A stretch of 15,010 nucleotides of DNA from Thermoleophilia bacterium (GTDB lineage Bacteria > Actinomycetota > Thermoleophilia > Gaiellales > Gaiellaceae): the NCBI GenBank assembly GCA_016844515.1, contig JAERMP010000148.1, positions 1 to 15,010 of the forward strand, in the 5' to 3' direction. The notes under the pieces are model-generated. The model was not told where the DNA came from, made no database searches, and saw only the letters and a list, made by a program, of their open reading frames with translations. Each line of letters starts with the position of its first letter. Positions within the stretch are counted from its first letter, which is position 1. The position numbers and the translations under genes are program-made. Positions 2,244-13,032 of this stretch are shown piece after piece.

Positions 2244-2261
2244 CAGCAAGCCTCGCCCTAC
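2244..2261 (-). repeat. Partial copy of GTAGGGGCGAGGCTTGC element
   Basis: The minus strand reads GTAGGGCGAGGCTTGC immediately at the helicase stop codon (TAG 2260-2258). It matches, with one base missing, the left arm of the perfect palindrome at 13053-13076, which likewise begins at the stop codon of the CeoC-like gene. The right arm is absent here (TGCGACC follows), so no strong hairpin forms. Confidence 0.4.
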
Positions 2262-4449
2262 GCGATCTTCTCGAGCGGGGCGTACTCGACCATGAGCCGT
2301 CTTTCGGTTCCGTCGGCGGCGAAGCGGATGGTCACGACACCTCCGGGCTCGATCCCCGTGACGATCCCTTCACCGAGTGAGCCATGCCGGACGGCGTCGC
2401 CGGTGGAGAGCACTAGTCCTGGCCTCGGCTCCACCGCCGCGCCGGGCTGCGCCTTGTACCCACTCCAGGACGACGGACGAAGTCGCTCCCGCTCGACCTC
2501 ACGAGGCAGCTCGTCGAGGAACCGGGACGAGAGGTTATAGCTCCTCCGGCCGAAGAGCGAGCGCGACAGTGTGTGCGTCAGAGTCAGCCGCTCCATCGCC
2601 CGCGTCATCCCCACGTAGCAAAGACGGCGCTCCTCCTCCACCCCCTGCTCCTCGATCGCGCGGACGTGCGGGAAGATGCCTTCCTCCATCCCGATCACGA
2701 AGACGGTGCGGAACTCGAGGCCCTTCGCGTTGTGCAGCGTCATCAGCGTGACGAGGCCGCGGTCGTCGGAGATCGTGTCCTGGTCGGAGACGAGCGCGAT
2801 GTCCTGGAGGAAGCCGGCGAGCGATGCGTCGGCGGTCTGCTGCCGATACTCGCGGGCGACGCCGACGAGCTCCTGCAGGTTCTCGATCCTTCCTCTGGCC
2901 TCGATCGTCCGCTCGGCCTCGAGCGCGTCGAGCGTTCCCGTCTTCTCGAGCACGCGCTCGAGGATCTCGTCCACCGGGAGCTCCTGCGAGAGCGCCATGA
3001 GCGACTCCATCGTCGCGTGGAAGCCGCGGACGGCGCGACACGAGGCGGCGGTCACGCCAGCAGCCTCGGGATCGGCCATTGCGGCGAAGAGGGTGCGGCC
3101 CGTGTTCTCGGCGTGGGTGACGAGCCGCTGCAGCGAGGTATCCCCGATCCCGCGGCGCGGACGGTTCGCGATCCGTAGCAGCGATGTCGCATCCGGCGGG
3201 TTGACGAGCACGGAGAGGTACGCAGTCGCGTCGCGGATCTCCGCGCGCTCGTAGAAGCGCGGACCGCCGATGACCTGGTAGGGGACGTCCTGCCGGACGA
3301 GCACGTCCTCGAGCACCCGGGACTGCGCGTTCGTTCTGTAGAAGACCGCGATCTCACTGGCCGAGAGGCCGCCGTCGATGTGCGATGCGATCTCCGCCGC
3401 GACGAATCGTGCCTCCGCGTGCTCGTCCTCGACCTCGATAACACGCACAGGATCGCCCTCGCCGAGCTCGGAGAAAAGGTTCTTGGGCTTGCGCTCGCGG
3501 TTCTGCTCGATCAGCGAGTTGGCCGCGCGCAGAATCATGTTCGTCGAGCGGTAGTTCTGCTCGAGTGTGACGACGACCGTCCCGGGGAAGTCCTTCTCGA
3601 ACTCGAGGATGTTGCGTATGTCAGCGCCTCGGAAGCCGTACACCGACTGGTCCTGATCGCCGACCGCACACACGTTCCCGTGCTCGCCGCCGAGGAGCTG
3701 CAGCAGCCGGTACTGCGCGTGGTTCGTGTCCTGGTACTCGTCGACGAGGACGTAGCGGAACGCCTTTCGCCAGCGCTCGAGCGCCTCGGGGAAGCGCTCG
3801 AAGACCTGCACGGTCAACATCAGCATGTCGTCGAAATCGACGGCATTCGAGGCGTGGAGGCGGCGCTGGTAGAGCTCATACGTCTCCGCAACCGTCTGGT
3901 CCCAGAACGAGGCGACGCGCTTCGCGTACTCCTCGGGCGAGACGAGCTCGTTCTTGGCGCGCGAGATCTGCGCGTGGATGCCGCGAGGCGAGAACCGCTT
4001 CGGATCCTTCCCGAGCTGCTCGAGGCACGCCCTGACGAGGCGCACCTGATCCTGGTCGTCGTAGATCGTGAAGGTCGAGCGATAGCCGAGCCGCTCTGCC
4101 TCGCGTCGCAGCATCCGACCGCAGGCTGCGTGGAACGTGAGGATCCAGATCGCCCGCGCAGTCGTGCCGAGCATCCGCTCGAGGCGCTCGCGCATCTCCC
4201 CCGCCGCCTTGTTCGTGAACGTGATCGCGAGAATCTCGTTCCCGCCTTGTTCGTGAATGTGATCGCGAGGATCTCGTTCGGCTTGACACCGCAGGCGCGA
4301 ATCAGATGAGCGACCCGATAGGTGAGGACGCGCGTCTTGCCTGATCCCGCCCCGGCGACGACGAGAAGCGGCCCCTCGGTGGCGAGAACAGCCTCGCGCT
4401 GAGCCTCGTTCAGGTCGGCGAGGTAGCTCTCGGGGGTCGCAACGGCCAC
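2258..4449 (-). CDS. pcrA: UvrD/PcrA-type ATP-dependent DNA helicase, frame broken by a 38-bp duplication
   Basis: This is a superfamily 1A 3'-to-5' helicase of nucleotide excision repair and replication-fork maintenance. The N-terminal frame (from GTG 4449) holds the Q motif LNEAQREAV and Walker A GAGSGKT (residues 33-39) and reaches motif Ia TFTNKA. The rest lies in another frame, open from ATG 4195 to the stop (645 residues), with DEYQDTN (motif II), [14 protein letters not shown] (III), LEQNYRST (IV), [10 protein letters not shown] (V) and [10 protein letters not shown] (VI). A 38-bp sequence encoding [12 protein letters not shown] is present twice in tandem at 4204-4279. Removing one copy gives a continuous 717-residue protein of normal PcrA length. 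As written, no single frame encodes both Walker A and motifs II-VI. I think the gene is intact in the organism and the break is an assembly error, but real disruption is not excluded. TAGCAT sits 6 nt before the start. Confidence 0.9.
4204..4279 (-). repeat. 38-bp imperfect tandem duplication inside helicase gene
   Basis: Copies 4204-4241 and 4242-4279 match at 36 of 38 positions. The differences are 4220 C against 4258 T, and 4232 A against 4270 G. Both are transitions at third codon positions that leave the encoded peptide (around [10 protein letters not shown]) unchanged. The period of 38 is not a multiple of 3 and shifts the frame. Confidence 0.97.
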
Positions 4450-4455
4450 TTTCCG

Positions 4456-4461
4456 ATGCTA
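4456..4461 (-). promoter_or_regulatory. Putative -10 of helicase gene (leaderless)
   Basis: On the minus strand TAGCAT is followed by six bases (CGGAAA) and then GTG 4449. No convincing ribosome site is visible, so the mRNA probably starts at the start codon. Confidence 0.5.
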
Positions 4462-4491
4462 TCCGTCACCACGGAGGAACCCTCCCAGCAC

Positions 4492-4497
4492 TACGAT
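4492..4497 (+). promoter_or_regulatory. Putative -10 of VOC gene (leaderless)
   Basis: TACGAT is followed by exactly six bases and then ATG 4504. This spacing decides the start in favour of 4504 over the in-frame ATG 4456, which overlaps the helicase -10 on the opposite strand. Confidence 0.5.
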
Positions 4498-4503
4498 CGA
4501 CCG

Positions 4504-4905
4504 ATGATCGAGGCGATTCATACGCTCATCTACTCCGACGACCCCGAGGCGACGAGAGCGTTCTTCCGCGACGTGCTCGGTTGGCCGTACGTCGAGCACC
4601 CCGAGTCGGAGCCCGGGTGGCTCATCTTCAAGACTGGGCCGAGCGAGATGGGCGTCCACCCCACCTCCGGAACGCATGCGGGCGAGACCTACACGTATCC
4701 GCGGCACCACTCGATCTCGCTGATGTGCGATGACATCGACGCGACAAGAGCGGAGCTCGCGGCGAAGGGAGCGACGTTCTCCGACGAGGTCCAGGACTTC
4801 GGGTTCGGACTGGGGACGATGCTGGAGCTGCCGGGTGCGGGCGGGATCCTCCTCTACGAGCCTCGGCATCCCGAGGCGCACAGCCCGAGCCGCGACCAGC
4901 TCTAG
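4504..4905 (+). CDS. VOC-superfamily protein (glyoxalase/bleomycin-resistance fold)
   Basis: A 133-residue single-domain vicinal-oxygen-chelate protein with two beta-alpha-beta-beta-beta halves. The first half opens with IEAIHTLIYSDDPEATRAFFRDVLGW and the second with HHSISLMCDDIDATRAELAAKG. Candidate metal ligands are His6 at the first strand, the histidines of RHHSISL and the glutamate of LLYEPRH near the C-terminus, so a divalent metal site may be retained. The family includes glyoxalase I, extradiol dioxygenases and antibiotic-binding proteins, and nothing here selects among them. ATG 4504 is preferred because homologous proteins begin at this point and a -10-like TACGAT lies 6 nt upstream. 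An extension to 4456 adds 16 residues without family similarity. Its TAG stop overlaps that of the converging ATPase gene. Confidence 0.85.
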   Translation: MIEAIHTLIYSDDPEATRAFFRDVLGWPYVEHPESEPGWLIFKTGPSEMGVHPTSGTHAGETYTYPRHHSISLMCDDIDATRAELAAKGATFSDEVQDFGFGLGTMLELPGAGGILLYEPRHPEAHSPSRDQL

Positions 4906-5684
4906 TCGTTCGCGGACGTTCGCCGGGGGACGACGGCGAGCCGGTCGCCTACTGAGATGACGTCGATCGACGCCCCGTAGTGGCTTGCGATCAGGTCCTC
5001 GGTGAGGACGTCGCGCGGGACGCCGTCGGCCGCCACCCGACCGCCGTCGAGGAGGACCATGCGGTCGGCGTACTGCGCCGCCAGGGTGAGGTCGTGCATG
5101 GCCGCGACGAGGGTGAGCCCCGATTCCGCGCGCAGAGTGTCTAGTAGGTCGAAGGCCTGCTGCTGATGGCCGATGTCGAGCGCCGCCGTGGGCTCGTCGA
5201 GGAGGACGATGCGCGCCTCCTGGGCGAGCGCCCGGGCGACGACCGCTCGCTGCTTCTCGCCACCCGAGAGCGTGCCGAGCCGGCGCTCCTCGTAGCCGAG
5301 CAGGTCCAGGCGAGCTAGTGCGCGCGCCGCGGCTTCACGGTCGCGCCTGCTCTCCTTCGCCAGCGGGCCGAGATGCGGAGTGCGGCCGAGGAGCACGTAC
5401 TCGCCGACCGTCATCCACGGAGGCGTGGACGGTTCCTGCGGCACGACCGCGATGAGGCGGGCGAGCTCCACGCGGGCCATCTCCCTGATCGAGCGGCCTC
5501 CGAGCGCGATGAGGCCAGAGAACGAGACGAGGCGCGCGATCGCTCGCAGGAGCGTCGTCTTCCCGGCGCCGTTCGGGCCGATGAGCGCAAGCCACTCCCC
5601 CTCGGCGACCGACGCGTCGATCCCGTCGACGACCGGTCGCCCTCCGAGAACGACGGTGACGCTCTGCAGCTCGATCGCCGTCAC
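4902..5684 (-). CDS. btuD: ABC transporter ATPase, cobalamin/iron-siderophore type (BtuD/FecE-like)
   Basis: This 260-residue nucleotide-binding subunit powers the importer. Walker A is GPNGAGKTT (36-44), the Q-loop glutamine is Gln83 in VVPQEPS, the ABC signature is LSGGEKQR (139-146), Walker B is IVLLDE (159-164) followed by the D-loop ALD, and the switch histidine is His197 in AAMHDLT. All catalytic elements are intact. GTG 5684 is chosen because GGAGGA lies just upstream and the GTGA overlaps the permease stop by four bases, typical of translational coupling. The riboswitch on the operon leader points to B12 rather than iron siderophore; the protein sequence alone would not separate these. 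The TAG stop lies on CTAG at 4902-4905, shared with the stop of the convergent VOC gene. Confidence 0.93.
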   Translation of the reverse strand: MTAIELQSVTVVLGGRPVVDGIDASVAEGEWLALIGPNGAGKTTLLRAIARLVSFSGLIALGGRSIREMARVELARLIAVVPQEPSTPPWMTVGEYVLLGRTPHLGPLAKESRRDREAAARALARLDLLGYEERRLGTLSGGEKQRAVVARALAQEARIVLLDEPTAALDIGHQQQAFDLLDTLRAESGLTLVAAMHDLTLAAQYADRMVLLDGGRVAADGVPRDVLTEDLIASHYGASIDVISVGDRLAVVPRRTSAND

Positions 5685-6745
5685 GAGCCTCCTCCCCGTG
5701 TCGTGCGCAGAACGAGCGCGAAGAACGGCGCCCCGAAGAACGCGGTCACCACTCCGAGCGGGATCTCGGCGGGCGAGAGTGCTGTGCGAGCGACCACGTC
5801 GGCGAGCACGAGGAACCCCGCCCCGATGATCACGGACAGTGGAAGCAGAGCCCGGTAGCCGACACCAGATACGAGGCGGATCGCGTGCGGGACGATGATT
5901 CCGACGAAGCCGATGAGCCCGCTCACGGCGACAGCGGCTGCTGTGCCGAGCGTCGCTGCGACGACGAGAGCGAGCCGCACTCGCCGGACATCGACGCCGA
6001 GGCTGGCTGCCTCGTCGTCGCCGAGGCTCAGGACATCGACGACGCGTCGCAGCGCGAGGATGACAACAATCGCGACGGCGACGTACGGAAGAATCAGCCA
6101 CACGTCGGCCCAGCCCGTGCTCGGAATGTTTCCGAGGATCCAGGAGTACACCTGCTGCAACGTCTCGGCGTTCTGCTGCTGGACGAACGTCTGCCAGGCC
6201 GTGAAGAACGCGGCAACGGTGACGCCCGCGAGGACGAGCGTCGCAGCGTCGCGCTCCCGCTTGGCCGAGCGGCCGACCGCGTAGGTGAGCAGGACTGCCA
6301 CCGATCCGCCGACGAAGGCGGCGACCGGGAGCGCACGCTGTCCACGCAGCCCCTCGGGGAGATACGCGATCGCGATCGTCGCTCCGAGACCCGCACCTGC
6401 GGCGACGCCGAGAAGGTACGGATCGGCGAGGGGATTGCGGAAAACGCCCTGGTAGGTCGCACCGGCTGACGCCAGCATCGCGCCCACGAGCGCAGCGAGG
6501 ACCACACGCGGAACGCGGATCTCCCAGAGGATCGCCTCCTCGGTCGGCGTGAGAGATGTGGAGACACCCGGTACGTGCAAGCGCGCGGCTGCCGACTCGA
6601 GCACAGCGCCGAACCCGAGGTCGATGGGGCCTGCGAGTACTCCGATCGCGAGCGAGAGGAGGAGGAACGCCACCGCAGAGCAGGCCCATCCGGGCGTGAG
6701 ACCTCGCGCCCGAACGTCCGGAGCGTGCTCCGCAGCGACGTTCAT
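5681..6745 (-). CDS. btuC: FecCD/BtuC-family ABC importer permease
   Basis: This 354-residue polytopic membrane protein has the family's usual length and about ten hydrophobic helices. The first is around residues 19-40 (GWACSAVAFLLLSLAIGVLA) and the last is near FFGAPFFALVLR at the C-terminus. The family hallmark GATYQGVFRNPLADPYLLGVAAG follows the second helix, and GLIGFVGIIVPHAIRL is the conserved loop region that contacts the ATPase in BtuC. It would form a homodimeric pore for corrinoid uptake with the ATPase and the upstream binding protein. ATG 6745 begins 4 nt after the binding-protein stop, and the 3' end overlaps the ATPase start by four bases, so the three genes form one transcription unit. 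Confidence 0.93.
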   Translation of the reverse strand: MNVAAEHAPDVRARGLTPGWACSAVAFLLLSLAIGVLAGPIDLGFGAVLESAAARLHVPGVSTSLTPTEEAILWEIRVPRVVLAALVGAMLASAGATYQGVFRNPLADPYLLGVAAGAGLGATIAIAYLPEGLRGQRALPVAAFVGGSVAVLLTYAVGRSAKRERDAATLVLAGVTVAAFFTAWQTFVQQQNAETLQQVYSWILGNIPSTGWADVWLILPYVAVAIVVILALRRVVDVLSLGDDEAASLGVDVRRVRLALVVAATLGTAAAVAVSGLIGFVGIIVPHAIRLVSGVGYRALLPLSVIIGAGFLVLADVVARTALSPAEIPLGVVTAFFGAPFFALVLRTTRGGGS

Positions 6746-6749
6746 CTGA

Positions 6750-7711
6750 CTACTGGCGTAGCCGCGCGAGCGCTGACGACATCGCGCGGAAGAAGTTCAC
6801 GAGCCGAGGGCCCCAGCGCGAGGCGATCGAGTCGTCGATCCGCACGATCGACCCGGTGCGCACGGCGCTGATGCGATCCCAACCCGGTCGCGACGCGACT
6901 GTCGAGGGCTTCTGCCCGCAGCACACGGTGTCCGCCAGCACGATGACGTCGGGGCTCGCGGAGACGACATACTCGGCCGAGAGCTGCGGATAGCCCGTGC
7001 CGACCGAATCGGCCTCGTCGGCGATGTTGCGGAGGCCGAGTGCCGCATAGACCTTGCCGACGAACGTCTTCGAGGTCGCCGAATAGAGGTCGGGCGTCAG
7101 CTCGTGGTACACCGAGAGCCCCCCGCCGGGCGTGCGCGCCGCCTTGACGATGCCGGCGATCTTCGACTTCATGCGATCGATCAGCCGCGTCGCTTCGGCT
7201 TCGTGCCCGGTGACAAGACCGAGCTGCCTGATCTGCTGATACGCGCCTTTGAACGTCGCCGCGCCGTCGTGATGGATGACGGTGATCCCGAGCCGCTCGA
7301 GCGCCCCGGAAAGACCCTTCGGGTCATACGCGATGACCACGAGGTCGGGCCGATAGCCGGCGATGGCCTCCACGTTAGGTGTGAAGCCCGAGAGCGAGGT
7401 GGAGGGAGCGCTCTTCGGGAAGTCGGATTGATCGTCGACCGCGACCACCTGCGAGCCGGCGCCGATGGCAAACAGGGACTCGGTCGCGGTGGGCGAGAGC
7501 GACACGATGCGGCGCGGCCTCGTCGCAACCGTGACCTTGCCGTTCGAGGCCACGATCGTGACCGGGAACGACGTAGGAGCTGCGTGCCTTGTAACAGTCT
7601 GTTGCAAGATCGGGTGAACGCCGGCCGCTCCGGCGACGAACATGGCGAACGCCGCCACCAACGCACCGGTGACGAGAGCTGTGAAGTGACGAGACCTGTG
7701 AAGCGAAGCAC
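6750..7711 (-). CDS. btuF: BtuF-like periplasmic cobalamin-binding protein, frame broken near the start
   Basis: Class III substrate-binding protein (TroA/BtuF fold). RPRRIVSLSPTATESLFAIG opens the first lobe. The glutamates of NVEAIAGYRPDLVV and LSAEYVVSASPDVIV match those that dock BtuF onto BtuC arginines, and CCGQKPSTVASRPGWD with IASRWGPRLVNFF closes the second lobe. A strong ribosome site AAGGAGG (7724-7718) sits 6 nt before GTG 7711, but that frame is not the frame of the protein. A 17-bp imperfect tandem duplication (7670-7703) lies between. Deleting one copy gives 314 residues starting MLRFTALVTGALVAAF, a good signal peptide. As written, the main frame can only start at TTG 7661 or inside the hydrophobic segment, without a ribosome site. 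No lipobox cysteine is visible, unusual for a Gram-positive binding protein. The riboswitch upstream supports B12 as ligand. Confidence 0.88.
7588..7608. repeat. AT-rich dyad, copy 1 (inside btuF-like gene)
   Basis: Arms CTTGTAACAG and CTGTTGCAAG flank a central T and pair over ten positions with one G-T pair. The first 16 bases plus the preceding C are identical to the sequence at 8728-8744. It lies in coding sequence just after the predicted signal peptide (LQQTVT), about 100 nt into the gene. Confidence 0.8.
7670..7703 (-). repeat. 17-bp imperfect tandem duplication at start of btuF-like gene
   Basis: Copies TGACGAGAGCTGTGAAG (7670-7686) and TGACGAGACCTGTGAAG (7687-7703) differ at one base (7678 G against 7695 C). 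The 17-bp period shifts the frame between the ribosome-site-linked GTG 7711 and the rest of the gene. Deleting either copy restores the frame. Confidence 0.95.
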
Positions 7712-7717
7712 CTGAAT

Positions 7718-7724
7718 CCTCCTT
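7718..7724 (-). promoter_or_regulatory. Ribosome binding site of btuF-like gene
   Basis: Minus-strand AAGGAGG with 6-nt spacing to GTG 7711 is the strongest Shine-Dalgarno match seen in the window and decides the intended start. A UCCUCC at the 3' base of the riboswitch (7748-7743) can pair with GGAGGA here, offering a way to hide the site. Confidence 0.75.
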
Positions 7725-7745
7725 CCGCGAGGGGTTCGGCTAGGA

Positions 7746-7887
7746 GGAGCGCGACAGGTCTTCTGACTCGGGGCTCCCTCCCTCGCCGCCTTCCCGGCTT
7801 GCGCCAGTGGCTTCGTGGCGGAGGAGCGTCTCCCCTTACAGCGGCGGGACCGTCCCGGATTCGCACCGGGTTCCCTCACCGTGCTCC
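7746..7887 (-). ncRNA. Cobalamin (B12) riboswitch controlling the btuF-like operon
   Basis: The minus strand holds the conserved core of the cobalamin riboswitch in order: GGTGCGAATCCGGG (7868-7855), CCGCTGTAAGGGG (7844-7832), the B12 box GCCACTG...GCCGGGAAGGC (7811-7788) and GAGTCAGAAGACCTG (7769-7755). A closing P1 stem GGAGC/GCTCC is possible between 7887-7883 and 7750-7746. It lies in the leader 35-176 nt before GTG 7711. Cobalamin binding normally lowers expression of uptake genes. The UCCUCC overlapping the 3' strand of P1 could sequester the ribosome site, which suggests control of translation, but I cannot settle the pairing logic by eye. Confidence 0.93.
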
Positions 7888-7901
7888 TTGATTGGAGGGC
7901 G

Positions 7902-7911
7902 AGCCTATCAT
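7902..7911. promoter_or_regulatory. Overlapping divergent -10 elements (btuF operon and VanZ gene)
   Basis: On the plus strand TATCAT (7906-7911) ends 6 nt before GTG 7918. On the minus strand TAGGCT (7907-7902) would start transcription near 7895, just upstream of the riboswitch. The two hexamers share the self-complementary TA at 7906-7907, so only one polymerase could occupy the site at a time. The minus-strand element is the less certain of the two. Confidence 0.45.
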
Positions 7912-7917
7912 CGGACG

Positions 7918-8268
7918 GTGTCCGCTTCCTTCACGCGACTCTGGCTCCCCGTCCTTGCGTGGGCCGCCTTGATCTTCGCCTTCTCGTCGGTGCCGGATCT
8001 GGGGACGGGTCTCGGTGGCTGGGACCTCGCCCTGCGCAAGCTCGCTCATGCGGCGGAATACTCCGTACTCGGAGCCCTTCTCGTACGCGCGACCGGACGG
8101 AGCGGGCTCGCGTTCGCACTCGGGACGCTGTACGCGACCAGCGACGAGATCCATCAGACATTCGTCTCCGGTCGCATGGGCTCTCCGCTCGACGTCGCGA
8201 TCGATGCGATCGGTGTCGCGTGTGGCGTCGTCCTCTGGCAGTCCATTCGGACTCGTCGGCTCGTATGA
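7918..8268 (+). CDS. VanZ-like membrane protein
   Basis: A 116-residue small membrane protein with about four hydrophobic segments, including LWLPVLAWAALIFAFSS near the N-terminus, YSVLGALLVRA, LAFALGTLYATSDEIHQ and AIDAIGVACGVVLW. The combination KLAHAAEY, DEIHQTFVSGRMGSPLDVAIDAIG is the signature of the VanZ family, whose namesake gives low-level teicoplanin resistance; most members have no known role. GTG 7918 is chosen because the hydrophobic region begins directly after it and TATCAT lies 6 nt upstream. No ribosome site is visible, consistent with a leaderless mRNA. Its stop overlaps the next start by four bases (ATGA), so the HAD-like gene is probably translationally coupled. Confidence 0.85.
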   Translation: MSASFTRLWLPVLAWAALIFAFSSVPDLGTGLGGWDLALRKLAHAAEYSVLGALLVRATGRSGLAFALGTLYATSDEIHQTFVSGRMGSPLDVAIDAIGVACGVVLWQSIRTRRLV

Positions 8269-8735
8269 CGCAAGGACGAGCGGTCGCGATCGATCTCGAC
8301 GCCCTCGGCGACACGCGCGCGCTCTGGAGCGATTGGCTCGCGTCGGCTCGAGCGGTGCTCAGCGTCGATCCCGCCGCGCTCTCCGCCGACCGCGGTGAGG
8401 CAGCCGCGGAGCTCGACCGTCAGGGAGCGGGTAACTGGCGAGCCCTGCTCGAGCGCTATAGCGAGGAACGTGCGCCCGTCTATATCCGCCGAGACGCGGA
8501 GACGAGCGCTGCATTGCGCTCACTCGACGCGTCGGGACACGTGATCGGGGTCTTCACGGATGCCCCCGAACCGCTCGCGCGCGTCGCGCTCGCCCAGCTC
8601 GGCGCCACGCGGCGGATTGCAGAGCTCGAGGTCGGAGACGGCGCTCTCGAGCGCATCCTCGTGGCCTTCGGCGCGGATGCACTCGTGGTTCGCACTCGCG
8701 ACGCGCTCATCGACATCGCGCGAACAACCTTGTAA
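8265..8735 (+). CDS. HAD-like protein with degenerate catalytic motifs
   Basis: A 156-residue protein with a haloacid-dehalogenase layout. Motif I-like AIDLDALGDTRALWSDW (residues 8-24) retains the two aspartates of DxD, and a helical cap-like region contains ELDRQGAGNWRALLERYSEERAP. Motif II-like GVFTDAPEPLARVALAQLG keeps the Thr. The later motifs are poor: there is no clear catalytic lysine, and the usual GDxxxD is replaced by ADALVVRTRDAL. It may have lost phosphatase activity or may bind a ligand. Start ATG 8265 overlaps the VanZ stop by four bases. The TAA stop lies inside the AT-rich dyad at 8732-8746. Assignment to the HAD fold is probable; the substrate is unknown. Confidence 0.7.
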   Translation: MTQGRAVAIDLDALGDTRALWSDWLASARAVLSVDPAALSADRGEAAAELDRQGAGNWRALLERYSEERAPVYIRRDAETSAALRSLDASGHVIGVFTDAPEPLARVALAQLGATRRIAELEVGDGALERILVAFGADALVVRTRDALIDIARTTL

Positions 8736-8746
8736 CAGTCTGTTAC
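8732..8746. repeat. AT-rich dyad, copy 2, candidate operator
   Basis: GTAACAG-T-CTGTTAC is a perfect 15-bp dyad that stands out in GC-rich sequence. The 17 bases 8728-8744 (CCTTGTAACAGTCTGTT) are identical to 7587-7603. It spans the HAD-like stop codon and directly abuts TTGGCA (8747-8752), a possible though widely spaced -35 of the next gene. The position suits a regulator site, but a dispersed repeat is equally possible. Confidence 0.75.
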
Positions 8747-8773
8747 TTGGCAGGGGTCGGGCCCTCCGGTTCG

Positions 8774-8779
8774 TACAAT
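8774..8779 (+). promoter_or_regulatory. Putative -10 of the 72-residue protein gene (leaderless)
   Basis: TACAAT, the best -10 match in the window, ends six bases before ATG 8786. A TTGGCA at 8747-8752 is a long 21 nt away, so its role as -35 is doubtful. Confidence 0.6.
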
Positions 8780-8785
8780 CGGCTC

Positions 8786-9004
8786 ATGGACCAGAAGGAC
8801 GTCGGGGATCGACAGCTCGACGCGCTCCTCGAGCGGCTCGATCGCATCGCGGACGAGCTCGCGCGCCTGAACCGGACGACCGAGAAGCAGGACGGGTTTA
8901 CCCTCGTCGCCCGCGAGCTTCGTGAGCTCACGGAGTCGATGAACGCGCTCGCCTACGCCGCGCTCGGCCAGGCGCCACCTCGCGTGAGGCGTCGCGCCGG
9001 CTGA
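8786..9004 (+). CDS. Small helical (coiled-coil-like) protein of unknown function
   Basis: A 72-residue soluble, strongly charged protein I do not recognise. Residues about 10-30 (RQLDALLERLDRIADELARL) and 40-58 (LVARELRELTESMNALAYA) have leucine/isoleucine spacing of 3-4 residues, so two amphipathic helices or a helical hairpin are likely. The tail PPRVRRRAG is basic. There is no signal peptide, membrane segment or metal motif. The start ATG 8786 follows TACAAT by six bases with no ribosome site, and the gene is preceded by the perfect dyad at 8732-8746 and followed by two hairpins, so it looks like a separately regulated single-gene unit. The good promoter and bounded unit support a real gene. 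Confidence 0.7.
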   Translation: MDQKDVGDRQLDALLERLDRIADELARLNRTTEKQDGFTLVARELRELTESMNALAYAALGQAPPRVRRRAG

Positions 9005-9111: not shown

Positions 9112-10114
9112 TTACGTCAGTCGGAAGATCGTTCCATCGTGGGAGACTGCGAACAGCTCCCCGGCAGCGTTCTCGCCGAACGAGCTCAGGCTGCCGACCT
9201 CGAACGGCTCGGTCCGAAGGTCGACCACTGCGCCGGCGGAGACGCGGAAGCTCCAGATCGTCCCTGAGCAGTAGTCGCCGACGACGTACCGCCCGCGCTC
9301 CGCCGGACGGGCCGAGCCGCGATAGACCAGGAGCGCCGTTGTCGTAGCGCTGGGATCCTTCGTAGCGATTCCAGCCGTAGTTCTCGAGCCCGGGACTCTC
9401 ACGTGGCGTGAAGTCGACCTCTTCGACCGAGCCCTGCCCAACGTCGCCGATGTAGAGGTCCCCCGTCAGGCGATCGAACGAGAACCGCCACGGGTTTCTC
9501 AGCCCGAGCGCCGCGATCGACCACCTCGCGCCCGGTTTCGACACGTCGAGGGTGAGCAGCTTCCCGAATCGAGACGCCATGTCCTGCGACCTGTCTTGCG
9601 GATCGCCGCCTGCACCGCCATCGCCGATGCTCGTGTACAGGCGTCCATCAGGTCCAAAGGCGAGATGCCCGCCGTTGTGATTCCCGTACGGGTCGCGCAC
9701 GGCGAGCAGGATCTTGCGGCTCGTAGGCACGGCCTTCGTGCCGTTCGAGCGGAACCGGGCAACGGTATTTCGATCGCCGTTCGACGTGTAGGCGACGTAG
9801 AGGAGCCGGTTTTTCGCGTAGTTGGGGTGAAACGCGAGCCCGAGCAAGCCCTGCTCGCCGCCCGAGACGATCTGGCGACGAATGTCGAGGAAGACCGTCC
9901 GTCGGCCCGATCTGAGCCGAATCACCCTTCCACCCTGCTCCACGACGTAGACCGTTCCGGGCTCGCCGGGGGCGTACGTCAACAGCACGGGAGCATCGAA
10001 CCCCCGTGCGTAAGCGACCTTGCCGAACGCTTCGCTCGCACGTGAAGCCGACCCCGCACCTCCGAGCAAGAGGGCGCCCGCGACGGCGACCGCGATCGTC
10101 GACAAGGCGCGCAC
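9112..10114 (-). pseudogene. Glucose/sorbosone dehydrogenase-like protein, frameshifted with apparent internal loss
   Basis: Six-bladed beta-propeller of the GSDH/YliI family (soluble PQQ-dependent aldose sugar dehydrogenases), exported by an N-terminal signal MRALSTIAVAVAGALLLGG. Family landmarks appear in order: GEQGLLGLAFHPNYAKN, NHNGGHLAFGPDGRLY with the likely catalytic histidine, GDGGAGGDP, and GLRNPWRFSFDRLTGDLYIGDVGQ. Frame one continues through ENYGWNRYEGSQRYDNGAP and then degenerates. The C-terminal end (LVYRGSARPAERGRYVVGDYCSG to the TAA at 9112) is in another frame, joined near 9329-9337. Family members normally have some 25-30 residues between these points, including a GCSVTGG-like segment, and these are missing. 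So about 90 bases seem lost, not a multiple of three. GTG 10114 has TACCGT 6 nt upstream. Whether the loss is real or an assembly collapse is open. Confidence 0.82.
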
Positions 10115-10120
10115 GGCACC

Positions 10121-10126
10121 ACGGTA
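10121..10126 (-). promoter_or_regulatory. Putative -10 of dehydrogenase gene (leaderless)
   Basis: Minus-strand TACCGT is followed by six bases (GGTGCC) and GTG 10114. No ribosome site is visible. Confidence 0.45.
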
Positions 10127-10158
10127 GCCAACCCCTGTGAACAAGCCGTGAGCCGGAG

Positions 10159-10164
10159 TAGGGT
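10159..10164 (+). promoter_or_regulatory. Putative -10 of trkA-trkH operon
   Basis: TAGGGT ends 8 nt before GTG 10173, slightly wider than at the other units. No Shine-Dalgarno match is seen, so a leaderless or nearly leaderless mRNA is likely. Confidence 0.4.
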
Positions 10165-10172
10165 ACGCGCTC

Positions 10173-11498
10173 GTGAAGGTCTTCGTGATCGGCGCGGGGC
10201 AGGTCGGAACGACAATCGTCGAGGCTCTCCACGAGGACCACGAGATCACCGTGCTCGACAACGAGGCATCGCGCCTCCAGGCGATCGCCGGGCGGTTCGA
10301 CGTCGCGACGTACGAGGGCGACGGGACGAGCCGCAAGGACCTCGCAGCGGCCGGAGTCGGAAGCGCAGACCTCGTCATCGCCTGCACGTCCCGCGACGAG
10401 GTGAACCTGGTCGCAGGCATGTTCGCGCGCCGTGAGACGCCCGGGGCAACGACGGTGATCCGGACCTCGAACGTCGAGTACGTCGAGCTCTGGCGCGCCG
10501 GCCAGCTTGACGTCGACTTCGTCGTCTCGTCCGAGCTCGAGACGGCGTACGCGATCAGCCGCATCATCGGCGTTCCTGCGGCACGACAGACCGATGTCTT
10601 CGCGGAGGGACAGGTGCAGGTTGGTGAATTCGACGCCGAGGAAGGCGCATCTCCCGACGTGATCGGCGTCGCGCTACGCCACGCGAAGATCCCGGCCGAT
10701 TCGAAGATCGCGGCCATAATCCGCGACAACGAGACCATCCTTCCCGGGGGTGACGAGACGATCCGGATCGGCGATCGAATCGTCGTCATCGGCTCGCCGG
10801 CAGCGGCGAAGGCATGGAGCTCGCTCCTCTGGCCCGAAGGCGGGACCGTGCGTGACGTCGTGATCTTCGGAGCCGGTCACGTGGGAATGGCCATCGCGCG
10901 CGTGCTCGTCGAGCAGGGGCTCAACGTGCGCATGATCGAGGCCTCGAGCGAGCAGGCGCGCCGTGCCGCCGAGGCCCTTCCGACCGTGCGTGTCTACAAC
11001 GCGACCGGGTTCGACCCCGACTTCCTCGAGCGGGAGCGGATCGGCCAGTCGCAGGCCGGCATCTTCGCCATGAGAGACGACGCCAAGAACCAGTACGCCG
11101 CTTCTCTCGCGCAGGTGAACGGCATCCAGTTCACGATCGCGATTGCGCACGAAGCTGTCTCGGTCGCAGCCTTCGAGCACGCGGGCATCGACGTCTCGGT
11201 GAACCCGCGCGGAGTCACCGCCGAGGAAATCGTCCGCTTCGCACACGATCCACGGATGCAGCAGGTCTCGATGCTCGAGGGCAACCGCTACGAGGTGCTC
11301 GACGTCACCACGAGGGAGTCGAGCCGCTACATCGGCATGGCGTTCCGCGACATGCCTGTCCACGGCTCGCTCATCGGCGCGATCGTCCGCAACGGGGAGG
11401 CAATCTTCCCGCACGGCGACGATGTCCTGCAGGCTGGCGACCGCGTGATCATCTTCACCGAGACCGCAAACGCGCCCTGGGTCGTCGAGGCACTCTGA
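10173..11498 (+). CDS. trkA: Trk potassium uptake system NAD-binding regulatory protein TrkA
   Basis: This 441-residue protein is a tandem of two RCK units, each a Rossmann TrkA_N domain followed by a TrkA_C domain, the usual long TrkA architecture. The first nucleotide-binding loop is GAGQVG (7-12), with the acidic end of strand two in VLDNE. The second is GAGHVG (233-238), with MIEAS. TrkA_C parts end the halves, as in GDETIRIGDRIVVIG (193-207) and HGDDVLQAGDRVIIF near the C-terminus. It assembles on the cytosolic face of TrkH and gates K+ flow in response to nucleotides. Start GTG 10173 places the glycine loop at the normal distance. The trkH start follows the stop by one base, so the pair is one operon. 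Confidence 0.95.
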   Translation: MKVFVIGAGQVGTTIVEALHEDHEITVLDNEASRLQAIAGRFDVATYEGDGTSRKDLAAAGVGSADLVIACTSRDEVNLVAGMFARRETPGATTVIRTSNVEYVELWRAGQLDVDFVVSSELETAYAISRIIGVPAARQTDVFAEGQVQVGEFDAEEGASPDVIGVALRHAKIPADSKIAAIIRDNETILPGGDETIRIGDRIVVIGSPAAAKAWSSLLWPEGGTVRDVVIFGAGHVGMAIARVLVEQGLNVRMIEASSEQARRAAEALPTVRVYNATGFDPDFLERERIGQSQAGIFAMRDDAKNQYAASLAQVNGIQFTIAIAHEAVSVAAFEHAGIDVSVNPRGVTAEEIVRFAHDPRMQQVSMLEGNRYEVLDVTTRESSRYIGMAFRDMPVHGSLIGAIVRNGEAIFPHGDDVLQAGDRVIIFTETANAPWVVEAL

Positions 11499-11499
11499 G

Positions 11500-13032
11500 T
11501 TGACTCAAGCTCCATCGCGGATCGGTTCCCCGCGACGACTCGCAATCGACATCCCTGCCGTCGTCAACCTCGTCGGGACGCTGGGGAAGTACCTTGGGCT
11601 CGCCGCACTCTTTCCCATCCCGTTCGCGCTCTGGTACGGCGAGACGCTCCTTCCCTTCCTCGTGGCAGGCGTCCTCACGAGCGGACTCGGGTTCGCCCTC
11701 GAGCGGCTGACGGCCGGCGCTGCCGGGCGCGTGGGCGTGCGGGAAGGCTTCCTCGTGGTAGCCCTGACCTGGCTGCTTGCGGCAGGCTTCGCGTCGATCC
11801 CGTACCTGTTCGAAGGGGGCGAGCAGCTCTCGAGCCCCCTGGATGCCTACTTCGAGGGGATGTCGGGATTCACCACCACCGGCGCCAGCGTCGTGACCGA
11901 CTTCGACGAGATCAACCGCTCACTCGGGATCTGGCGCCAGTTCTCGCAGTGGCTCGGCGGGATGGGAATCATCGTCCTCGCGATCGCGGTCCTGCCTCGC
12001 CTTCGCGTCGGCGGGCGGCAGATGATGGAGTCCGAGCTCCCCGGACCGGAGATCGCGCAGCTCTCCGAGCGTATTCGCTCGACGGCTCGCAAGCTCTGGG
12101 TCCTCTACGTCGGTCTCACGGTGCTTCAGACGCTCATGCTCGCCACCCTGGGGTGGGTCGGGATCGACGATGCGATGACCCCATATCAGGCGCTCGCTCA
12201 CGCGTTCTCGACGATGCCGACGGGCGGGTTCTCGACCCAACCTCGTTCGGCGGAAGCGTTCTCGGCGGAGGCGCAATGGATCCTGGCCTTGTTCATGCTC
12301 GTCGCCGGCGCCAACTTCGCGCTCATGTATCGCGGGATCGTGCGACGCCGACCGCACGTGTTCGCGCGCGACGAGGAGTTCCGGCTCTACATCGTGCTCG
12401 CTCTCGTCGCGTCGGCGGCGGTCACCGCGATGCTCTGGGGATACGGGATCGCCGAGGGCGAGGAGGCCGTTCGAACCGGGTTCTTCCAGACGGTCTCGAT
12501 CATGACGACCACGGGTATGGCGAGTGCCGACTTCGCGCGCTGGCCGGCGGTGCTCCTGCTCGCGCTCTTCGCCCTCATGTTCGTCGGAGGGTCAGCCGGA
12601 TCGACAGGTGGCTCGATCAAGGTCGTGCGTCACCTCTTGCTCGGGAAGGTGCTACGCCGTGAGATCGACCAGACGCTTAGTCCCGAGGTCGTCATGCCGA
12701 TCCGCTTGAACGGCGCGCCCGTGGACGAGCGCACGGTCCGGGCAATCGCTGCGTTCATCCTCCTCTACATCGGATTCTGGGCGATCGGCGCATCGGTCAT
12801 CGCCATCGACTCCGCCATCACCGGCGCGGGCCTGGGGACGCTCGATGCGCTCGCAGCCTCCGCCACGACTCTCGGCAACATCGGTCCTGCCTTCGGGACC
12901 GCCGGGCCCATGGGGTCCTTCGCAGAGCTGGGCGACGTCTCCAAGCTCACGATGATCGGGCTCATGTGGGCGGGCCGGCTCGAGATCGTCCCGGTCGCGG
13001 TGCTTCTGACACGCCACTACTGGCGGCTGTAA
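11500..13032 (+). CDS. trkH: Trk potassium transporter membrane subunit TrkH
   Basis: A 510-residue SKT-superfamily K+ transporter made of four membrane-pore-membrane repeats. The four selectivity-filter segments are all present, each with the key glycine: TTTGAS (125-130), MPTGGF (239-244), TTTGMA (336-341) and TLGNIGP (456-462). GGSAGSTGGSIKVVR (362-376) is the conserved loop after the third repeat that forms the intramembrane gate region. The protein ends shortly after the last helix, in TRHYWRL. The TTG start at 11500 is used because it lies one base past the trkA stop with GAGG about 9 nt upstream; the N-terminal 20 residues are not membrane-embedded, so a slightly later start cannot be excluded. 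It is complete and apparently functional, and pairs with the upstream TrkA. Confidence 0.95.
   Translation: MTQAPSRIGSPRRLAIDIPAVVNLVGTLGKYLGLAALFPIPFALWYGETLLPFLVAGVLTSGLGFALERLTAGAAGRVGVREGFLVVALTWLLAAGFASIPYLFEGGEQLSSPLDAYFEGMSGFTTTGASVVTDFDEINRSLGIWRQFSQWLGGMGIIVLAIAVLPRLRVGGRQMMESELPGPEIAQLSERIRSTARKLWVLYVGLTVLQTLMLATLGWVGIDDAMTPYQALAHAFSTMPTGGFSTQPRSAEAFSAEAQWILALFMLVAGANFALMYRGIVRRRPHVFARDEEFRLYIVLALVASAAVTAMLWGYGIAEGEEAVRTGFFQTVSIMTTTGMASADFARWPAVLLLALFALMFVGGSAGSTGGSIKVVRHLLLGKVLRREIDQTLSPEVVMPIRLNGAPVDERTVRAIAAFILLYIGFWAIGASVIAIDSAITGAGLGTLDALAASATTLGNIGPAFGTAGPMGSFAELGDVSKLTMIGLMWAGRLEIVPVAVLLTRHYWRL

Follow-up and report, generated by a model that had tools for sequence, protein, structure and literature searches.

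A 38-bp imperfect tandem duplication splits a PcrA-like helicase gene and is best explained as a strain-variant join in a metagenome assembly

Tandem duplications occur in bacteria, and phase-variable switches made of tandem repeats form one kind of system. The locus described here is like such a switch in that its unit, which lies in a coding region, has a length not divisible by three, but it differs in having two diverged units alone and in that the relatives checked show no copy-number variation. Another comparison is offered by metagenome assemblies, for which part of one report describes local assembly errors and scaffold-join gaps that, when uncorrected, propagate incorrect gene sequences, and states that the most marked fragmentation usually comes from co-existing related strains (PMC7111523). 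The window, by which we mean the whole 15,010-nt stretch of DNA analysed, resembles the local errors described in that part of the report in having a short frame-breaking discrepancy in a conserved gene; its sequence also resembles uncultured Gaiellaceae metagenome bins, and two sister bins break the same gene, pcrA, at scaffold joins. The form of the discrepancy differs: the window has an overlap written twice, with two variable positions and without any N, whereas five relatives with a broken pcrA have missing residues. The excerpts of the literature on tandem-duplication assembly artefacts that we consulted held nothing directly on point.

The affected gene lies on the minus strand, where a 38-bp pair splits a PcrA/UvrD reading frame after residue 69. 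No single continuous frame for this helicase was found in the window, the split falling at 4204–4279. The first frame (ORF 3820–4449) starts with GTG at 4449 and leaves the helicase sequence at the 38-bp pair; its helicase portion (4243..4449, minus strand) comprises 69 codons whose product is identical to that of the relative L001 over the 69 residues, and it includes the motif AGAGSGKT, which we take to be Walker A. The rest of the helicase (2258..4195, minus strand), 645 aa from an internal ATG, is without Walker A and is 96% identical to the intact relative P0001. In this second frame relatives are matched from ~4240 to the stop at 2258, and the frame is open upstream of the internal ATG. 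PF00580 (UvrD-helicase) matches both pieces and PF13361 (UvrD_C) matches the second, as in the PcrA/UvrD superfamily 1A helicases, of which intact 717-aa relatives are 96% identical over the 645-aa part; the relatives checked are unsplit at residue 69, unlike the window gene. The span from start to stop (2258–4449) is 2,192 nt, compared with 2,154 nt for 717 codons and a stop, an excess of 38 nt, and a length of exactly 717 residues is found in 74 of the 120 relatives listed. The claim of the preliminary description that taking away one copy gives a 717-residue protein agrees with this excess, by arithmetic alone (2,192 − 2,154 = 38 nt).

Direct reading and two repeat finders confirmed that an imperfect duplication at 4204..4279 breaks the helicase gene. 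The two copies are arranged head-to-tail with a period of 38, 2.0 copies and 36 of 38 bases identical. At the two codons that vary, copy 1, on the 5′ side with respect to the gene (4242..4279, minus strand), has ATC and ACA, and copy 2, on the 3′ side (4204..4241, minus strand), has ATT and ACG. TRF gives the pair a score of 138, above every other tandem repeat listed for the window (next 63), and its identity of 0.947 compares with a best value of 0.76 when the window was shuffled 100 times in triplet blocks (periods 25–120). A lower-ranking repeat, a 17-bp unit present 2.1 times at 7669–7703, immediately precedes a BtuF-like ORF whose listed start is the TTG at 7661.

The differing bases of the 38-bp copies are 4220 versus 4258 and 4232 versus 4270, which on the minus strand give the codon pairs ATT/ATC and ACG/ACA. 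Codon arithmetic shows that both are transitions at the third codon position in each copy's own frame, as the preliminary description had said; its further step, from silent differences to a join of strain variants, is weak as a lone argument and adds little by itself, as both differences would fall at third positions by chance with p ~0.11. The longest exact run common to the copies is 16 bases (4204–4219 with 4242–4257). No flanking microhomology was found at the ends of the 38-bp unit, and the single-strand fold of the repeat was no better than that of shuffles (z 0.49, with 141 of 200 shuffled sequences folding as well). Slippage is disfavoured by the lack of microhomology and of a special fold, and a hairpin or slippage-prone structure at the repeat was rejected on the fold value. 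The window sequence contains no N bases, and megablast returned no plasmid match.

Comparison with the same locus in related genomes, a check that had been proposed for the duplication, was then carried out. The GTDB genome collection, when scanned, yielded 80 loci; 26 of them were checked upstream of the match, and none of the 26 holds a second copy of the 38-bp unit (two, L016 and L022, are cut by a contig edge inside the N-terminal part). The N-terminal part is open throughout in the other 24, and the 38-base stretch could be aligned in 25, L022 being the exception; copy number of the unit does not vary between the related genomes in this set. In a second sample, 103 genomes of the nearest hit's family were searched for pcrA. 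At least 81 of these have, by hand count of the matches listed, an unbroken match of ≥66% identity spanning residues 58–72, and the closest family genome among the matches listed (G044, locus L116) has an intact pcrA with 94% identity. The stretch from Walker A to motif Ia is in a single frame in all 30 loci drawn from this family search (L081–L110). A tandem scan of the window and the 80 loci (1,319,725 bases, periods 25–120, ≥90% identity) gave matches at one or two periods in the window, L034, L039, L046, L058 and L062; matches at every successive period listed, in L005, L008, L030 and L065 and likewise in L096 and L102 in a later scan, were taken for runs of N.

At the first variable site, the 25 aligned loci have C in 22, T in 2 and A in 1, and at the second they have G in 14, C in 10 and A in 1. 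The rare state of copy 2 is therefore T at site 1 (2 of 25) and that of copy 1 is A at site 2 (1 of 25). Each copy pairs a frequent base with an infrequent one, which is what two related variants would show.

These comparisons bear on a living, reversible switch, in which gain or loss of a 38-bp copy would turn the helicase on or off. Because 38 bp is a frame-shifting step, the gene would be toggled by copy number, and protein models of some relatives begin where the second piece of the window gene does: 645-aa models starting at the window's internal Met account for 6 of the 120 relatives listed. Short models of 644 to 690 aa number 41 in the lists and have several different in-frame starts. 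A full-length relative at ≥95% exists for 19 of the 41 and for none of the other 22 in the lists gathered; eight of those 22 are 645–648 aa long (P0026, P0027, P0029, P0039, P0056, P0117, P0244 and P0260), which could be counted in favour of a switch. The first six of these begin with the internal Met that follows motif Ia, and one of the eight is on a 442 kb contig. Among the loci gathered, none matches any of the 41 short models at ≥95%. Given the varied starts and the 19 models with full-length relatives, many of the short models resemble gene-caller choice, and a split recurring at this Met seems less likely; start-site choice by gene callers would be the simpler account of forms that are known from protein models alone. 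The relatives examined, in which no second copy was seen, add nothing to the on/off alternative of the preliminary description. With two units alone, differing at 2 of 38 bases, and a fold no better than shuffles, we regard a switch as highly improbable. The same holds for a variant with two subpopulations, in which one-copy cells would make PcrA and two-copy cells would not, as a heritable mutator-like switch whose copies are kept different by strain exchange. If the duplication did exist in the cell, it would be surprising to find PcrA silenced in a living lineage.

We examined the remainder of the gene for decay. The 645-aa part has no private change at the 328 columns that are invariant in 114 other proteins, these being the proteins closest in sequence to that of the window. 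It has two residues found in no other row, a number equalled or exceeded in 48 of the 114 rows. Six of 120 rows, namely four intein-length proteins and two without the anchor motif, had been dropped before counting. If 2 changes per 76 bases held gene-wide, the 328 columns should hold ~19 amino-acid changes; the conditional probability that both of two changes fall in the repeat is ~0.009, assuming an equal rate and ~74% nonsynonymous sites. Decay after duplication is disfavoured by the 2/38 difference between the copies set against the absence of decay in the 645-aa part. This weighs on the reading in which the cell really underwent a tandem duplication and later acquired two point mutations, leaving the helicase gene inactive as a young pseudogene. 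Such a history would sit easily with a sequence free of N and with the general knowledge that bacteria undergo tandem duplications, but it has to accommodate copies that differ by 5% next to an undecayed gene, as well as unit ends without microhomology. By analogy, Bacillus subtilis would also speak against it, as loss of PcrA is lethal there according to the part of a report seen (PMC7385302). We consider a young pseudogene improbable.

The affinity of the window to two relatives was compared on either side of the junction, by counting window sites that side with L116 (G044) or with L001. Over five genes right of the junction, the N-terminal part of pcrA included, the ratio L116:L001 was 397:150, whereas to the left, in the first 360 codons of the C-terminal part, it was a neutral 66:67 (p = 8e-7). 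Within pcrA itself, the N-terminal part (13:6) and the first 360 codons of the C-terminal part (66:67) gave p = 0.15, and a shift was also present inside the C-terminal part where there is no lesion (66:67 versus 75:33, p = 0.002). The change of affinity at the junction is therefore not clean, being confounded by gene identity and matched by a lesion-free shift inside pcrA. Amino-acid identity between the window and L116 is 0.91–0.98 in the compared genes at ~4902–9004 and 0.55–0.76 over an acetyltransferase (995–2218) and a dehydrogenase–TrkA–TrkH block (9115–13032); the change in identity to L116 falls between ~9004 and 9115, off a lesion at ~9335 that is described below.

A real mosaic would be one source of such a shift. 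In that case DNA of a related strain would have been taken in with homologous recombination at one end and, at the other, end joining or illegitimate recombination, so that a 38-bp overlap with strain differences remained. The part of a report seen describes homology-facilitated illegitimate recombination (PMC3240628), and a mosaic would account for the copy differences, the missing microhomology and the contrast between 397:150 and 66:67. That contrast is nonetheless confounded by gene identity and has its lesion-free counterpart inside pcrA; the event would also have destroyed the helicase, and it leaves the lesion at ~9335 unexplained. On balance, a mosaic appears very improbable.

The second frame-breaking lesion of the window (9326..9345, minus strand) lies in a glucose/sorbosone dehydrogenase gene at 9115–10144 that is 71 nt short relative to P0121. 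Residues 1–273 of P0121 match 10144–9326 and residues 291–367 match 9345–9115 in a different frame, the deficit of 71 nt following from arithmetic on the match coordinates. The two-frame pattern was repeated against the eight relatives compared, and the syntenic loci L003, L012 and L025 each gave one unbroken match to P0121 across the dehydrogenase region. Two frame-breaking lesions of different type within 15 kb, both in conserved genes, implicate the assembly more than the cell.

The pcrA gene itself is broken in assemblies of related genomes. By our own reading of the matches listed, it is split between frames on one contig in at least 5 of the 103 family genomes (G007, G014, G018, G031 and G088), a count that leaves out family genomes with only part of pcrA among the matches listed. 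Each of the five lacks 5 to 28 residues between its two frames. The break coincides with a two-base N join in L111 (1779–1780) and L114 (1502–1503); in L112, L113 and L115 pcrA is split and residues are missing without N. None of the five has a tandem duplication at the pcrA break, and a scan of the five revealed nothing beyond a 15-base pair (13/15) in L111 and another in L113, neither of them at a break. The breaks at N in L111 and L114 indicate that scaffold joins do break pcrA in sister assemblies, by another kind of error, and the absence of a tandem duplication from all five means that the particular error type of the window is not reproduced.

The absence of a second copy in the relatives checked, the lack of decay, the second lesion and the sister breaks at scaffold joins make a strain-variant join the best-supported reading, in agreement with the preliminary description, which had proposed two strain variants joined end to end. 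We consider it very likely, from comparison of sequences, that the 38-bp duplication is a local error of this kind in a metagenome assembly. The organism would be a Gaiellaceae-like actinobacterium known from metagenomes, with an ordinary and complete pcrA/uvrD-type gene. Two co-existing variants of that gene, differing at two silent sites, would each have been assembled over the same 38 bases, and the pieces, put end to end without being merged, would have had those bases written twice and the frame shifted. We infer that read pairs set the pieces side by side with no gap written. With 16 bases as the longest exact run between the copies, the overlap could have been missed by merging on longer exact words. 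A strain-variant join is less well matched by a window without N, by five broken relatives of which none shows a tandem duplication, and by the expected change of affinity, which is not clean (p = 0.15 within pcrA). Both the mixed-variant origin and the joining step are inferred from these observations. The cell itself probably has an intact helicase gene, and such an artefact calls for caution, as a conserved helicase gene would be annotated as broken though very likely whole in the cell.

Some further features of this region were observed. An ORF at 4456–4905, between pcrA and an ABC transporter, is glyoxalase/VOC-like by reading of its sequence; it has no match in L116, L001 or L003, though the genes on either side do match. 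Among pcrA relatives, P0018, P0019, P0030 and P0105 are 1,087–1,089 aa long and bear PF14890, presumably an intein domain, and a long in-frame insertion near residues 254–258 of pcrA is present in at least six genomes (G013, G026, G049, G062, G078 and G086).
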